A stretch of 64,000 nt of DNA from Flagellimonas sp. MMG031 (lineage in GTDB: Bacteria > Bacteroidota > Bacteroidia > Flavobacteriales > Flavobacteriaceae): positions 1,304,501-1,368,500 of the forward strand of contig NZ_CP157804.1 in NCBI RefSeq assembly GCF_040112705.1, given 5' to 3'. Both the position numbers and the translations under genes were made by a program. A model generated the notes under the pieces. It saw only the letters and a program-made list of their open reading frames with translations. It was not told the origin of the DNA and searched no databases. Of this stretch, positions 16,718 through 22,496 are shown piece after piece (the first letter of the stretch is position 1; each line of letters starts with the position of its first letter).

Positions 16718-18838
16718 TTAATTCCAATGTAGTCTTTCATATTCGCTTTGTTCTGCTCTGTTTTTCGGAACTGATGAATTTCCAATCCTAACATAAAAGT
16801 TCTCATTTCCCTCGAAAGTCGCAAAGACAGGTTTCCCACTTTTTAGTATTTGAACTTTACAGATTGTCTTTTCATCAATAGTCGGAAAACTAACTTTCAG
16901 ATATTTCTCGAAGCTTGAACCTAAATATTTTGATATGATATTTCTTAAATGCAATTCAAAACCGTCAATGTCTTTCTTTGAAAGAGTTTCACAGTCTTTG
17001 TCAAGTCCCAAAGCATTTCCATCGTCGTCAACGCCAATGATTAAAATACCTCCTTCACTATTTAGAAAAGCTGAAATGGTTTTTGCAATTACAAACTCCA
17101 ATTTTTTATTGACTGTGTTTTCTCGTATATCGTAACGCAACGTTGATTTCAATTCCAACTTTTCGTTTTCGCCAATTAAGACTAATTCTTTTAATTCCGT
17201 ATCCTCTGCTGGGATTTCATTTTTAAGCTCGATACGGTTTTTTAAGGCTTTGAAAATCGAATTAGCTCTTTTTTCTAAAAATACAGAATAATCATCGCTG
17301 TAAATACCAAATTCGTCTATGTTGTCAATTAGGTGGGATTTTATGGATTTCCTCAAACCTTCATTCTCGTCCATAAAATCTTGAATGTAGATTGAAGGTG
17401 CTTTTGCTCTGATTTTTCTTTTGTTTAAATCCGCTCCAACTAAAGTGATATTAACAATACTGTTTTCATTTCCAATACCACGTTTTCGCAGATACGATTT
17501 AGGAAAGAAATGATGATAGTTCTTACTGTTTGCCATTTTGAGCCAAGAATTATCAAGAATGACTTTACCATTATCTCTAAAGTCTTTAGGCTCAAAGTAA
17601 GCTAAAAGACAAATAACAGCTTTACAATAACTATTTCCTGCACTAAACCCTGTGTCGATTAAATCTTTTGGTGAGTTTAAGAAGACTTTTATTTCATCGT
17701 AATTTGGTCTTTGCTCTTGAAGAATTTGGTCAATCCGCTTGATGTCTTGTGCAAGTTTAGACTCTGTTGAACTTGAATATCTGTATGATAGTGAAATACG
17801 CCAAAAGAATTCTTCCAAATACTTGATTTGTTTTCCTTTTGGTTTCTCTTTTTGGAAATAAAAGAAGTAACTAAATGGGACTAAAAGAGCATCATAAGGC
17901 AAAAGAGTGGAAACAGGAATTCTGTACACTGAGCGTAAATAATCAATGCTCTCTTTTAGTGCCGAAATAACATCATCCCAAATGTCTATTATGCTTTGTT
18001 TGTCCAGTTGTAAAACAACCTTTCTTTTACACTCTTTATTTTTGCTTAAAATCAAACTCAATACGTTAAGTATAACCGTACTTGAAATCGTATCGTATTT
18101 ACTTACCTCAAGTTCTTTAAGTAGTTTTTGGAATTTTGCCTGCATATCGAACTTCTGCTCTTCATCGTATGTCTTTGCAGACATAATTTCGAACAATGTA
18201 AGTGTTTGTCCACCTGTGTTTATTCGAGTAAAAACTTCTATAGCAGAATCTATATCCTCTTTGCGAAGTACGACTGTTGAAAAGTCGTATGTTGAAAATG
18301 TTTGAGAATATTGATGAATTTTTTTGAATTGTTCATCTGAAAAACGCTCTTTTATTTCAAGTAAATTATCGTTGAAATTAAGAACTTCATTCAAGGTTAT
18401 GAAAGTGCTTTCTGGTTGTTCTGAAACTATGATTTGTTCATCATTATTGTCAATGTCGCCCTCTAAATCAACAAAAATAGAACCATAGTTTGTAATTTTT
18501 TTCTCGCCTTCTTTTTGTATTGAAGCACCTAAAAATGCGGCATACAATGATGTAATTCTTTGTTGTCCGTCCAAAACGTATTGAACTTTAATATCGTCTG
18601 GAATTGGTGGCAATTCAAGATTCCCGATATTTTTAATATCATTAAGTCGTTCATTTGTTTCCCAAAGTATAAAAGTTCCAATTGGATAGCCTTTTAAGAT
18701 ACTATCTAATAATTTGGCTGTTTTATCAATGCTCCAGACAAAATCTCGCTGAAATTTCGGAATCTTAATTTGTCCTTTTTGTATTTCGGATATTAAGTCT
18801 GTGTATTTTTTCGAGTCTGGTTTTGGTTGTTTATTCAT
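16718..18838 (-). CDS. DUF262-HNH-AlbA_2 fusion protein, probable nucleic-acid defence factor
   Basis: This is a 706-residue protein in three parts. Residues 1-230 are a DUF262/ParB-like domain: IPKFQRDFVW (26-35), the nucleotide-binding hallmark DGQQR (90-94) and FTRINTGG (203-210). Residues 430-480 carry an HNH-like nuclease motif, HHFFPKS (442-448) with downstream Asn and Lys residues as in DUF1524. Residues 550-706 form an AlbA_2/Schlafen-like domain: ENEKLELKSTLR, GGILIIGVDDDG (596-607) and YVRIGNSSVPK. DUF262-HNH proteins include GmrSD-type restriction enzymes that cut modified phage DNA, and Schlafen AlbA_2 domains occur in nucleases and regulators. Joining all three in one chain suggests a stand-alone defence effector; this is inference. 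The gene is AT-richer than its surroundings and lies beside a structured element and tRNA genes, which suggests transfer. No methylase is adjacent. Confidence 0.88.
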   Translation of the reverse strand: MNKQPKPDSKKYTDLISEIQKGQIKIPKFQRDFVWSIDKTAKLLDSILKGYPIGTFILWETNERLNDIKNIGNLELPPIPDDIKVQYVLDGQQRITSLYAAFLGASIQKEGEKKITNYGSIFVDLEGDIDNNDEQIIVSEQPESTFITLNEVLNFNDNLLEIKERFSDEQFKKIHQYSQTFSTYDFSTVVLRKEDIDSAIEVFTRINTGGQTLTLFEIMSAKTYDEEQKFDMQAKFQKLLKELEVSKYDTISSTVILNVLSLILSKNKECKRKVVLQLDKQSIIDIWDDVISALKESIDYLRSVYRIPVSTLLPYDALLVPFSYFFYFQKEKPKGKQIKYLEEFFWRISLSYRYSSSTESKLAQDIKRIDQILQEQRPNYDEIKVFLNSPKDLIDTGFSAGNSYCKAVICLLAYFEPKDFRDNGKVILDNSWLKMANSKNYHHFFPKSYLRKRGIGNENSIVNITLVGADLNKRKIRAKAPSIYIQDFMDENEGLRKSIKSHLIDNIDEFGIYSDDYSVFLEKRANSIFKALKNRIELKNEIPAEDTELKELVLIGENEKLELKSTLRYDIRENTVNKKLEFVIAKTISAFLNSEGGILIIGVDDDGNALGLDKDCETLSKKDIDGFELHLRNIISKYLGSSFEKYLKVSFPTIDEKTICKVQILKSGKPVFATFEGNENFYVRIGNSSVPKNRAEQSEYERLHWN

Positions 18839-19209
18839 TCAATTTAATTCTTTTTTTTCTGTTCGTTTTAATTGGTGGTAACGGGCCTTGTTTATGGCGA
18901 GTGAGGCGTGCCTCACGGGGAGCCATCGTTTCGCCTCATTCGGTATAAGTGCAGTTGATGGCTTTGGCTTTTGCCTATTGCCCTAGTTAAAGATAGAAAA
19001 AACTTTCATGGGTCATGAGGTGGAATGTACAAGGCCCGTTGATGGCGATTACTCGAAGAGATATAGCCATCAACTGCAATGATTTACACCCGGTTTTCAG
19101 AACCCAACTTATTAAATGTTAGAAGTCCGTTGGATGACTAAAAATTTGGGACAGTACTGTTTTAAAAAACAAAAAACCCTGAAAATCAAAAGATTAACAG
19201 GGTTTCGAG
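18839..19209. other. Gene-free stretch holding an interleaved inverted-repeat element
   Basis: I find no gene here. Two perfect 12-bp inverted repeats interleave. AACGGGCCTTGT (18880-18891) pairs with ACAAGGCCCGTT (19029-19040), and GCAGTTGATGGC (18951-18962) pairs with GCCATCAACTGC (19066-19077). A tight local hairpin, GTGAGGC-GT-GCCTCAC, lies at 18901-18916. The order A-B-A'-B' is that of a pseudoknot or of two overlapping recombination-site-like folds. It lies directly upstream of the DUF262 fusion gene. The function is unknown. Confidence 0.75.
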
Positions 19210-19294
19210 TACTCGAGGCGGGACTTGAACCCGCACGGGCAAAATGCCCACAGGATTTTAAGTCCGGCGTGTCTACCAATTCCACCACTCGAGC
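19210..19294 (-). tRNA. tRNA-Leu (anticodon TAA)
   Basis: This is an 85-base class II tRNA. The acceptor stem GCTCGAG pairs with CTCGAGT with a G-T at position 1-72, the discriminator is A, the anticodon loop reads CTTAAAA, and a long variable arm (GGGCATTTTGCCC) is present. The T arm contains GGGTTCAAGTCCC. CCA is not encoded. The first dozen bases and the upstream flank are duplicated at 19638-19676. Confidence 0.95.
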
Positions 19295-19321
19295 TTGTCT
19301 GCCGTAGGCAAGACTGGACTT
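19283..19321. repeat. Direct repeat copy 1: tRNA-Leu 5' end plus flank
   Basis: This copy overlaps the 5' end of tRNA-Leu and runs to the stop codon of the GIY-YIG gene. Its first 28 bases, including CACTCGAGCTTGTCTGCCGT, are identical to 19638-19665. Over 39 bases the two copies differ at two positions. The copies are 355 bp apart and bracket the GIY-YIG gene. Confidence 0.85.
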
Positions 19322-19589
19322 AACGTTCAATATTTTCATCACTCTGGCTAAGAACCAAATTCTTTAAGAATTCCTTTCCATACCCAGATTTTAACTTCTT
19401 CTCTTCAACCCTGGCCTCCGACCTTGTTTTAAACTCTTTTTTAAAGATTAAAACAAAAGGCCTATAAGCCCTTGTTGTTTTATTTCTACCTGAGTTGTGT
19501 TCTTCCAGCCTTCTTTCCAAATCGGAAGTTATTCCGACATAAATATAGTTTCTTTTTACACTATTCAAAGCGTACGTATAGAACATCAC
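19320..19589 (-). CDS. Small GIY-YIG nuclease-domain protein (UPF0213-like)
   Basis: This is an 89-residue protein. The GIY-YIG core appears as FYTYAL (residues 3-8) and YIYVGIT (15-21), followed by SDLERRLEEHNSG with the conserved Arg and a SEARVEEKKLK helix carrying the Glu. Such single-domain proteins resemble the catalytic part of UvrC and of homing endonucleases; most have no demonstrated substrate. The gene lies between tRNA-Leu and a partial copy of the same tRNA and its flank, and its stop codon falls at the end of the direct repeat. Insertion as a unit next to the tRNA is therefore likely. The ATG at 19586 is an equally possible start. Confidence 0.88.
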   Translation of the reverse strand: MMFYTYALNSVKRNYIYVGITSDLERRLEEHNSGRNKTTRAYRPFVLIFKKEFKTRSEARVEEKKLKSGYGKEFLKNLVLSQSDENIER

Positions 19590-19603
19590 CCAATTTTCAA
19601 AAT

Positions 19604-19649
19604 CTGTCTACCAACCTGCCTGCCGGCAGGCAGGTTACACCACTCGAGC
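19604..19649 (-). pseudogene. Partial tRNA-Leu copy interrupted by a 20-bp palindrome
   Basis: On the minus strand this reads as the tRNA-Leu 5' part, GCTCGAGTGGTG, then a perfect palindrome (CCTGCCTGCC with its complement, 19616-19635), then TTGGTAGACAG, the D-arm bases of the same tRNA. The anticodon arm, variable arm and T arm are missing, so it cannot be functional. It is a remnant of a duplicated tRNA-Leu. The palindrome has the look of a dispersed repetitive element. Confidence 0.75.
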
Positions 19650-19676
19650 TTGTCTGCCGTAGGCATGACAGGACTT
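19638..19676. repeat. Direct repeat copy 2 of tRNA-Leu 5' end plus flank
   Basis: This is the second copy of the 39-base direct repeat that begins at 19283 (first 28 bases identical, two mismatches after that). Together with copy 1 it frames the GIY-YIG gene like left and right junctions of an insertion. Confidence 0.85.
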
Positions 19677-19726
19677 GTATGTAAAAAAAAAACTCCACCC
19701 GTGGTGACTGAGCGGAGTCGAAGTCG

Positions 19727-19799
19727 AGCGAAAAACGGGATTCGAACCCGCGACCTCCACCTTGGCAAGGTGATGCTCTACCAACTGAGCTATTTTCGC
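19727..19799 (-). tRNA. tRNA-Gly (anticodon GCC)
   Basis: This is a 73-base tRNA. The acceptor stem GCGAAAA pairs with TTTTCGC, the D arm has AGCTCAGTTGGTAGAGC, the anticodon loop is TTGCCAA, the T arm is GGGTTCGAATCCC, and the discriminator is T, as expected for glycine. CCA is not encoded. It lies about 80 bp from the partial tRNA-Leu copy. Confidence 0.96.
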
Positions 19800-19875
19800 A
19801 TTTTTAAAGAACGCTTCACTTTTCCCAAGCGCGGATGCAAATTTATAATATTTCTATTAAAATAAAAGAATTTTT

Positions 19876-22496
19876 TTAGGAAGATGCCTTTTTCTTTTTC
19901 CCCAACAATCGCTTGATCTCGTTCAGCTTCATCAATGCCTCCACAGGTGTCAGTGTATCAATGTCCAAGTGCAAAATTTCTTCCTTGATCTTTCCAGCAA
20001 AGGGTCGTCCAAATTGAAAAAACTCAGCTGCATCTCGTTTTGGGAGGCCTGTAGCTTGTCCGTCATCTCCTCACTGGAGTGCGATTTCTCCAGTTTTTTA
20101 AGGATTTTGTTCGCCTTTTGAATCACCTGTTGCGGCATTCCCGCCATTTTCGCTACATGGATTCCAAAACTGTGTTCGCTGCCCCCGGGTATCAATTTTC
20201 GGAGAAAGAGGACATTGTCTTCCAACTCTTTTACGGAAACATTATAGTTTTTGATGCGGGTAAACGTATTGGTCATTTCGTTGAGCTCGTGGTAATGCGT
20301 AGCGAATAGCGTTTTTGCCTTCGCGGGGTGCTCGTGCAAATACTCCGAAATGGCCCAAGCGATGGAAATACCGTCATAGGTACTGGTGCCACGACCAATT
20401 TCGTCCAAGAGCACCAAACTGCGCTCCGAGAGGTTGTTCAGAATGGAAGCGGTCTCGTTCATCTCTACCATAAAGGTCGATTCGCCCATCGAAATATTGT
20501 CACTGGCCCCGACCCGTGTAAAAATCTTGTCCACCACACCAAGGTGTGCCTCCGTAGCGGGCACAAAACTGCCCATCTGGGCCAAGAGCATGATCAATGC
20601 GGTTTGCCGTAACAAGGCAGATTTACCGCTCATGTTAGGCCCGGTAATCATGATGATTTGTTGCTCTTCGCGGTTGAGCAGTACATCGTTGGTCACATAA
20701 GCATCACCAATGGGCAATTGTTTTTCGATAACGGGGTGCCTTCCTTCCTTGATGTCAATCGTGGTCGAATCGTTTACCATCGGCTCCACATAGTGGTTCT
20801 CCTTGGCCAACTGGGCAAAGCCACAAAGACAATCCAATTGGGCGATCAGGTGGGCGTTGCGCTGCACTGGAGAAATATATTCCTGCATCCAGACCAGCAA
20901 CTGTTCAAAAAGCTGCTGTTCCAAATGGTAAATGCGTTCCTCGGCACCCAAGATTTTGGACTCGTATTCCTTGAGTTCTTCGGTGATGTAGCGTTCCGCA
21001 TTGACCAAGGTTTGTTTTCGAATCCAAGCTTCGGGAACCTTGTCCTTGTGGGTATTCCGAACTTCAATATAATATCCAAAAACGTTGTTGGAAGCGATTT
21101 TTAGGGAAGTGATACCAGTTTCCTTGGTTTCCCGTTCCAACATTTTATCCAGATAATCCTTGCTGGAAAAAGCCAGTCCCCTCAATTCGTCCAGTTCTTC
21201 CGAATAACCCTCGGCGATGGTGTTGCCTTTGGCAATGTTCACCGGGGCCTCCTCATTGAGTACCTCCTTTATTTTGGACCGAAGGGCTTCGCAATCGTCC
21301 AAACTTTCCCCGATATGTTGTAGGGAGGTGTTGGAGCTGTTGAGGGCCAATTGTTTGATGGGCACCACCGCTTCCAATGAGTTTTTGAGTTGGACCACTT
21401 CCTTGGGGTTGATTTTTCCCGTGGCCAATTTGGAGATCAAACGCTCCAGATCGCCCATCTGTTTAATGTGGCCCTGAATCCTGTTCAATTGGGACTCCTC
21501 GCTTTTTAGATGGGCGACCACTTCATGGCGTTGCCGGATCTTTTCCACATTTTTCAACGGAAGGGCCAACCATCTTTTTAACAGGCGTCCGCCCATGGGG
21601 GACAGCGTCTTGTCGATAATGTCCAACAAGGTCACCGCATTTTGATGGGAGGAATGATAAAGTTCCAGGTTACGGATGGTAAAGCGGTCCATCCACACAT
21701 ATTCCTCCTCTGCAATCCGCTGTATGTTGTTGATATGCTTGAGTTGGCTATGCTGGGTTTCGGAAAGATAGTGTAGCACCGCCCCCGAAGCAATAATGCC
21801 TTGGTTGAGGTGGTCGATGCCGAAACCCTTTAGGGTTTTGGTACCAAAATGTTGGTTCAAGCGCTCTTGGGCATAATCTTCCTGAAAAATCCAATCTTCC
21901 AAAAAGAAACTATGGAAATGCTTACCAAAACACTCCACAAAATCCTTTTTATGGTTTTTGGAGACCAAAATTTCGTTCGGCGAAAAGTTTTGGAGCAGTT
22001 TGTCCACCTGTTCCGCTGATCCTTGGGAACACAGATATTCCCCAGTGGAAATGTCCAAAAAGGAAACACCCATTTTATTCCGCCCAAAATGGACGGCACA
22101 CAAGAAGTTGTTGTTCTTGGCGGTGAGGATGTCATCGTTCAAGGCAACTCCGGGAGTCACCAATTCGGTGACGCCACGCTTTACAATGCTTTTGGTCTGT
22201 TTGGGGTCTTCCAACTGATCGCAGATGGCCACGCGCTGTCCCGCTTTCACCAATTTGGGCAAATAGGTGTTCAGGGAGTGGTGCGGAAACCCGGCCAGTT
22301 CGGTCTTGTCCCCCCCATTGTTCCTGTGGGTAAGGATAATGCCCAATATTTTCGCGGCCTTTACCGCGTCCTCCCCAAAGGTTTCATAAAAGTCACCTAC
22401 ACGGAACAGCAACAGCGCATCCGGGTGTTTTACCTTGATGGCATTGTACTGCTGCATTAACGGGGTAACCTTTGTATTCTTTTTCTTGGCTGCCAA
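19876..22496 (-). CDS. mutS: DNA mismatch repair protein MutS (frameshifted near 3' end)
   Basis: MutS recognises base mismatches and small loops and starts repair with MutL. The mismatch-binding motif GDFYETF has Phe36 and Glu38 at the same numbers as in E. coli. The ATPase has Walker A GPNMSGKS, Walker [17 protein letters not shown] and ATHYHEL. The continuous frame stops at 19950 after 848 residues and ends in an unfamiliar tail. Adding one base in the short A run at 19991-19993 (minus strand) restores a family-typical end, [20 protein letters not shown] and a Lys-rich tail, with TAA at 19876-19878 and about 873 residues in all. The lost part is the C-terminal helical region; the ATPase core is intact. 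It could be a real mutation or a sequencing error. Confidence 0.93.

Follow-up and report, generated by a model that had tools for sequence, protein, structure and literature searches.

We propose that a locus in Flagellimonas sp. MMG031 is a minimal, free-standing, homing-type GIY-YIG gene that has invaded a tRNA-Leu gene, bringing a second leader and a second 5' part of the tRNA with it and leaving one tRNA intact; judging from sequence comparison, we put the probability of this reading at roughly 0.65. The same arrangement recurs at many other tRNAs across the Bacteroidota, which suggests that minimal selfish genes aimed at tRNA genes form a class of their own that has attracted little notice. 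Here, "the window" is the whole 64-kb stretch of DNA that was analyzed, and coordinates refer to it unless the genome is named.

The locus is framed by a direct repeat. Positions 19283-19321 and 19638-19676 (39 bp) are identical at 37 of 39 positions, the initial 28 all matching, and the extended repeat measures 42 bp at 93% identity. The runner-up match to the 39-mer in the whole window, on both strands, reaches 22/39, and the 21-bp core of the repeat occurs at two sites and no others in the 3.76-Mb genome (up to two mismatches allowed). The 5' end of tRNA-Leu(UAA) lies at 19294 on the minus strand, so that the proximal repeat overlaps the tRNA by 12 bases. The distal copy runs through the 5'-most 15 nt of tRNA-Leu (one change), a perfect palindrome, and the following 10 nt of the tRNA. 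A sequence-only reading of this DNA had reported the repeat with its two mismatches, a GIY-YIG gene as the only gene between its copies, and a distal copy continuing into a D-arm piece broken by a perfect 20-bp palindrome. Recomputation returned the same coordinates, the D-arm piece and palindrome are where they were said to be, and an 88-aa ORF matching PF01541 is the sole recognizable gene between the repeats.

Going along the minus strand, one meets tRNA-Gly(GCC) first, then a leader, tRNA-Leu nt 1-15, the palindrome, the next 10 nt of tRNA-Leu, the GIY-YIG gene, another leader, and finally tRNA-Leu(UAA) in its intact form. In window coordinates, the features are:

19209..19294, minus strand: intact tRNA-Leu(UAA), the working copy (ARAGORN; Rfam RF00005, 55.6 bits)
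19295..19321, minus strand: second leader copy (AAGTCC..., with imperfect palindrome), joined to the working tRNA and supplying the GIY-YIG ORF with its stop codon, TAA (repeat comparison)
19320..19586, minus strand: GIY-YIG nuclease gene, 88 aa, catalytic domain only (Pfam PF01541; AlphaFold2; dN/dS)
19605..19614, minus strand: tRNA-Leu remnant, D-arm piece TTGGTAGACA (sequence comparison)
19615..19634, no strand: perfect 20-bp palindrome CCTGCCTGCCGGCAGGCAGG, placed in the remnant's D loop (10/10 orthologs have a palindrome here, 8 of them a perfect one)
19635..19649, minus strand: tRNA-Leu remnant, 5'-terminal 15 nt, one change against the intact copy (sequence comparison)
19650..19676, minus strand: outer leader copy, AAGTCCT plus imperfect palindrome, which is the distal direct-repeat copy (repeat comparison)
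19726..19799, minus strand: tRNA-Gly(GCC), outer neighbor of the insertion site (tRNA search)

With its AA...TT flanks the palindrome CCTGCCTGCCGGCAGGCAGG spans 24 bp. It breaks the tRNA-Leu remnant, yet an intact tRNA-Leu persists at the occupied locus.

Some features of the surroundings deserve mention in their own right. The imperfect palindrome between leader and tRNA start (19650-19676 and 19295-19321) is present in both copies in L001, L018, and L019, in the left copy alone in L020, and in the right copy alone in L024 and L026; it is absent from L021, L022, L023, and L025. The leader AAGTCC (19316-19321) is complementary to GGACTT of the tRNA-Leu anticodon arm, and some genomes combine an AGTCCAA leader with GTTGGACTT in the anticodon arm (L068 and L071; not L069 or L072). 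This complementarity possibly reflects pairing in the pre-tRNA, or chance. Adjoining the locus, at 16718-18838 on the minus strand, a GmrSD N-terminal domain is fused to a Schlafen AlbA_2 domain, perhaps a defense gene.

The 88-aa protein matches PF01541 in Pfam with E = 3.6e-17 and 62.9 bits (frame read from 19589). Residues Y5, Y16, R26, H30, and E62 are invariant across 17 divergent members, which places it in the GIY-YIG superfamily; the conserved Tyr, Tyr, Arg, and Glu of this domain we take to be the catalytic residues. The AlphaFold2 model (mean pLDDT 91.6) is that of a bare catalytic domain. UPF0213 and Slx1, a nuclease of branched DNA, are the nearest solved sequences and folds, followed weakly by the catalytic domain of I-TevI (E 0.2). 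Searched with this protein, a phage collection returned no match at E 1e-5, and plasmid records returned none. Among 10 orthologs the median dN/dS is 0.095 (from 40 of 45 pairs, with dS close to saturation at a median of 1.43), and the protein is under purifying selection.

Those orthologs come from 10 of the 71 genomes of the genus, MMG031 counted, the nine others being 69-83% identical to the MMG031 protein. The same pair of tRNAs flanks every one of the ten, and each has a remnant whose D loop holds a palindrome at one and the same point (perfect in eight, with one change in L022 and shortened in L020); in all ten the 3' half of tRNA-Leu is missing from the spare copy. For the empty state we inspected 30 of the 61 genus genomes without a close ortholog. 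The tRNA pair is kept in all 30, and the tRNA-Leu 5' end occurs once only in 29 of them. L073 alone differs, with a decayed remnant that contains a different palindrome and with no GIY-YIG gene; in L068, one of the 29, a palindrome stands directly before the tRNA. Compared with G041, which is labelled as the same species, there is one large difference, a 375-bp indel in an otherwise collinear region whose flanks are 91% and 88% identical. Occupied and empty alleles thus occur at one site, as homing genes have them. The sequence-only reading had inferred that the nuclease gene entered at or near tRNA-Leu as a unit and left a partial tRNA behind, and had proposed looking for the repeats in genomes lacking the gene; the single 5' ends and the indel support it.

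Conservation within the ten loci is uneven. Averaged over pairs, the two pieces of the remnant are 98.7% and 100% identical and the palindrome 95.1%, against 55.9% for the spacer ahead of the ORF, 78.3% within the ORF, and 47.4% for the stretch after it. High remnant identity beside a variable spacer, together with the low dN/dS, means that remnant and protein are both conserved. Gene conversion from the intact tRNA could account for the conservation of the remnant, but not for that of the palindrome.

Host and element histories agree only in part. L018 and L022 have hosts 6.6% apart with elements 19.2% apart, and L019 and L021 have hosts 19.4% apart with elements 4.6% apart. These discordances, in opposite directions, show that the element has moved horizontally, at least in some lineages, and it is such spread independent of host lineage that characterizes a homing gene. 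This holds despite an overall positive correlation between host and element distances (Spearman 0.67 over 29 comparable pairs), from which it follows that vertical inheritance also has a part. Occupied and empty rows are mixed on a tree of the flanks, with 8 changes against 9.1 for shuffled labels, although this tree is weak and has very long branches. Those branches probably stem from another gene beside the tRNA pair in some rows, and we prefer the pairwise distances; the flank gene is probably mutS, from reading its ORF.

The arrangement extends well beyond the genus. A family search of 149 genomes with the 17-member alignment gave 109 distinct loci examined among the matches listed (array matches merged; own-genome rows and the eight lowest listed rows left out). 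A tRNA on the same strand lies within 400 bp in 65 of these 109 listed loci and an opposite-strand tRNA in none, leaving 44 of the listed loci with no tRNA within that distance. The link fades away from the model, from 24 of the first 29 loci to 5 of the last 20. Part of the same tRNA, taken as at least 15 of its bases in collinear exact blocks, is found on the far side of the gene in 45 of the 65 tRNA-linked loci, as against 50 of 3632 comparisons with other isotypes. Two mirror-image types occur: either a 5' remnant lies upstream of the gene and the intact tRNA downstream, or the intact tRNA lies upstream and a 3' remnant downstream, in which case the tRNA terminator is sometimes duplicated (L213, L220, and L227).

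At the level of the phylum, with up to 14 candidates scored per genome, matches at E 1e-15 occur in at least 155 of 395 genomes. This search gave 28 further loci; a same-strand tRNA stands within 400 bp of 23 of them, and 20 of those 23 have a remnant of at least 15 bases. In one of the 23 (L225), a tRNA-Met on the opposite strand lies 260 bp upstream as well. When named genomes were scanned with the Leu(UAA) orthologs, all ten serving as queries, 54 loci came up, nine of them from the genus of MMG031 and some of them short matches. A same-strand tRNA lies within 400 bp in 49 of the 54, and in 48 of the 49 it is tRNA-Leu; without the loci of the genus itself, 40 of 45 are tRNA-linked and 39 of the 40 tRNAs are tRNA-Leu. 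Where at least 100 nt of flank was available (45 of the 49 tRNA-linked loci), a remnant is present in 40. These loci include Chitinophagaceae, Saprospiraceae, and Cytophagales. An Ignavibacteriales MAG (L241, 68% identity) has two copies in which the D loop again bears this same palindrome, and in a Paceibacterota MAG (L257) the remnant matches that MAG's own tRNA; contamination is possible in both MAGs. The family, phylum, and named-genome counts all fit the further suggestion of the sequence-only reading that many small GIY-YIG genes of flavobacteria spread in this way. Genes with partial tRNAs beside them, which it had proposed searching for, are among these loci; the palindrome, which it had also named for that search, is not specific to the element.

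Tandem arrays are common, with, for example, at least five copies of a 450-bp unit in G448. The MMG031 genome itself has three tandem GIY-YIG genes of another lineage (L002, L004, and L005) at genome positions 510148-511105, in units of about 363 bp. After each unit comes a tRNA-Ala-like 3' remnant in which palindromes, as read by eye, take the place of the anticodon arm and the T loop; ARAGORN finds no tRNA in this interval.

Some loci depart from the tRNA pattern. When 40 of the 44 loci without a tRNA were run through Rfam, five had a same-strand tmRNA upstream, and in these (L150, L171, L173, L174, and L178) the GIY-YIG gene lies 197-421 bp downstream of it. We considered tmRNA as a further target, and a clear remnant is present in 0/5, so it is excluded from the count. 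In L104, the GIY-YIG gene is flanked by a 28-bp repeat (locus positions 1397-1424 and 1762-1789) of the 5' part of an epimerase-like gene; perhaps a NAD-dependent epimerase gene (identified by eye) has here been invaded by the same trick, in a protein gene. In L101, a small gene of the four-helix, 23S intervening sequence type appears, by eye, to be interrupted by a GIY-YIG gene.

Target choice is notably faithful to lineage. When the isoacceptor of the neighboring tRNA (18 kinds) is mapped on a tree of 117 proteins, 36 changes are needed; the minimum possible is 17, the mean for shuffled labels is 88.4, and 0 of 200 shuffles is as low. The tree covers those loci whose tRNA is no more than 400 bp away, with L002 and L044 added, and the labels of L002, L040, L043, and L044 were assigned by hand; an ARAGORN call of tRNA-Cys in L043 was rejected, the sequence being a tRNA-Arg copy that carries a palindrome. 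Protein lineages are thus seen to follow, as far as such a tree can tell, the tRNA beside them, the tree having 78 columns and many unresolved forks and its clustering coming partly from vertical inheritance of loci.

Palindromes are concentrated in the remnants. Under a strict definition (perfect arms of at least 7, loop of at most 8, arm GC of at least 55%), 53 of 113 loci show one or more in the remnant zone, as compared with 0/113 for the outer zones, 1/113 for the ORFs, and 6/113 for the intact tRNAs. The 53 include the ten Leu(UAA) orthologs, and at least two (L151 and L227) resemble terminators; the remnant zones of the other 60 loci have no strict palindrome, and many of these have imperfect ones. 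A looser hairpin test (arms of 7, one mismatch, loop of at most 14) was abandoned as non-discriminating, with hits in 79/84 remnant zones, 52/84 controls, and 55/84 intact tRNAs. The palindromes of the remnants vary in sequence (CCTGCCTGCCGGCAGGCAGG, TCCCGATAGCTATCGGGA, and others), and in L161 (Val), L144 (Arg), and L137 and L140 (both Pro) a whole arm of the spare tRNA is swapped for a hairpin of similar length. Set against tRNA secondary structure, a purely descriptive tally in which at least three of the 41 sites are chain artefacts, there are 79 events at 41 distinct sites, about 9.7 within stems. The exact 20-mer of MMG031 has 37 sites in 18 of the 71 genus genomes. Nine are at GIY-tRNA remnants and 28 lie away from recognized GIY-tRNA loci; the two of these 28 that were read are intergenic and without a tRNA.

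On the homing reading, the nuclease would cut an empty tRNA gene, perhaps close to its anticodon loop. A donor would then serve as template for repair, remnant and intact tRNA acting as the homology arms, and the gene would be copied into the empty site. The same repair within one genome would give rise to tandem arrays. The palindromes most likely disarm the spare copy: they would keep it from competing in tRNA folding and processing and from recombining the element away. There is a problem with this reading, in that the intact tRNA of an occupied genome should stay cleavable unless recognition exceeds the 7-nt leader. The remnants also stop at varying points (at nt 25 in MMG031, within the anticodon loop in L081 and L241, at nt 46 in L087, at nt 51 in L132; L244 has the entire tRNA), so that there is no single insertion point, which also counts against it, as do the positive host/element correlation, the negative phage and plasmid searches, and the listed family loci that have no tRNA.

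The order of events could have been the reverse, with a tandem duplication of the tRNA, the GIY-YIG gene lying between the copies, and later disabling of the redundant copy and its erosion on the gene-facing side. Near full-length spare Pro copies with arms replaced by palindromes (L133, L137, and L140) speak for this order, as does L244, where the spare Leu keeps all 83 nt and a palindrome is inserted after nt 32. The tandem arrays of many genomes, the three units in MMG031 among them, agree with it, and the phage nuclease SegB amplifies tRNA loci by microhomology, according to excerpts of PMC13096335. In the ten Leu(UAA) orthologs, however, the spare copy is conserved rather than decaying (98.7-100% beside a 55.9% spacer), its 3' half is absent throughout, and occupied and empty sites differ by one step, the 375-bp indel. 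We consider duplication first the main rival, unlikely if by no means negligible.

A more speculative proposal, for which we would claim rather little, makes nuclease, spare tRNA, and palindromes a single system. An Slx1-like minimal structure-specific nuclease would recognize the cloverleaf of a tRNA gene in extruded or single-stranded DNA, cut at loops and stem ends, and provoke the insertion of palindromic hairpins or the swapping of arms. The palindromes would be non-autonomous passengers, and the spare tRNA with its hairpins would be a working part of target choice, possibly also as RNA.

It is very improbable that this is a vertically inherited host gene of tRNA operons, with a function such as tRNA-gene maintenance, that has repeatedly been lost through repeat recombination. 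Purifying selection and the correlation over 29 pairs would suit such a gene, and direct repeats would permit its exact loss, but close hosts have distant elements and distant hosts near-identical ones, and occupied and empty rows are mixed on the (weak) flank tree. Least credible of all is that short mobile palindromes entered the tRNA, template switching duplicated it, and the GIY-YIG gene came along as a passenger: enrichment in remnant zones (53/113 vs 0/113), the 28 of 37 genus sites elsewhere, the gene-less remnant and palindrome of L073, and the lone palindrome of L068 speak for it, but 60 of 113 zones have no strict palindrome (though many have imperfect ones) and protein lineages appear to follow the tRNA.

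If the homing reading is right, one of the smallest protein-coding selfish elements, a single catalytic domain of about 85 residues, would have come to adjoin the genes for 18 or more tRNA isoacceptors within one phylum, with the tRNAs staying intact. This would account for many small GIY-YIG genes and the tRNA fragments adjoining them. It also raises the questions of how so small a nuclease distinguishes tRNA-Leu from tRNA-Arg genes, and whether nucleases of this kind are what moves short palindromes about in these genomes. Among the open-access papers listed in our searches, we found no earlier description of GIY-YIG gene, tRNA remnant, and palindrome in this arrangement.

Several known systems share one part or another of it. 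Genomic islands with tyrosine recombinases insert in tRNA genes and keep the tRNA intact by means of a partial copy that they carry; the intact tRNA is common to both, whereas the 375-bp segment of MMG031 has no integrase, and the GIY-YIG ORF alone is recognized in it. Group I introns with homing nucleases occur in tRNA-Leu(UAA), the same target gene, but in MMG031 the tRNA is restored as DNA and not by splicing. A search of 18600-20200 with Rfam (E up to 1) found no group I intron RNA, giving the two tRNAs and five weak, unrelated hits below the gathering score. Rickettsia palindromic elements are short palindromes inserted in genes; here, in-gene palindromes are likewise seen, but concentrated in the spare tRNA copy beside a nuclease gene. 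UPF0213 and Slx1 are the closest in solved sequence and fold, although Slx1 chains are longer, and the six remaining GIY-YIG paralogs of the MMG031 genome (the tandem three excluded) differ from the element in that none has a tRNA within 1.5 kb.

The closest known case is SegB of T-even phages, which excerpts of two papers (PMC2988022, PMC13096335) describe as a free-standing homing endonuclease of the GIY-YIG type, encoded within a cluster of tRNA genes. According to the excerpts of the second, cutting by SegB leads to tandem amplification of the tRNA-segB segment, with microhomology linking the 5' region of the tRNA to the 3' region of segB. From these descriptions, the two systems have in common a tRNA-linked GIY-YIG nuclease that is inherited with tRNAs, and tandem amplification through tRNA 5'/gene 3' microhomology. 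There are differences too: SegB is a phage protein whose listed target in these excerpts is a tRNA intergenic region, whereas elements of the MMG031 type encode 80-90 aa, are chromosomal and Bacteroidota-wide, and carry a partial tRNA copy with palindromes.
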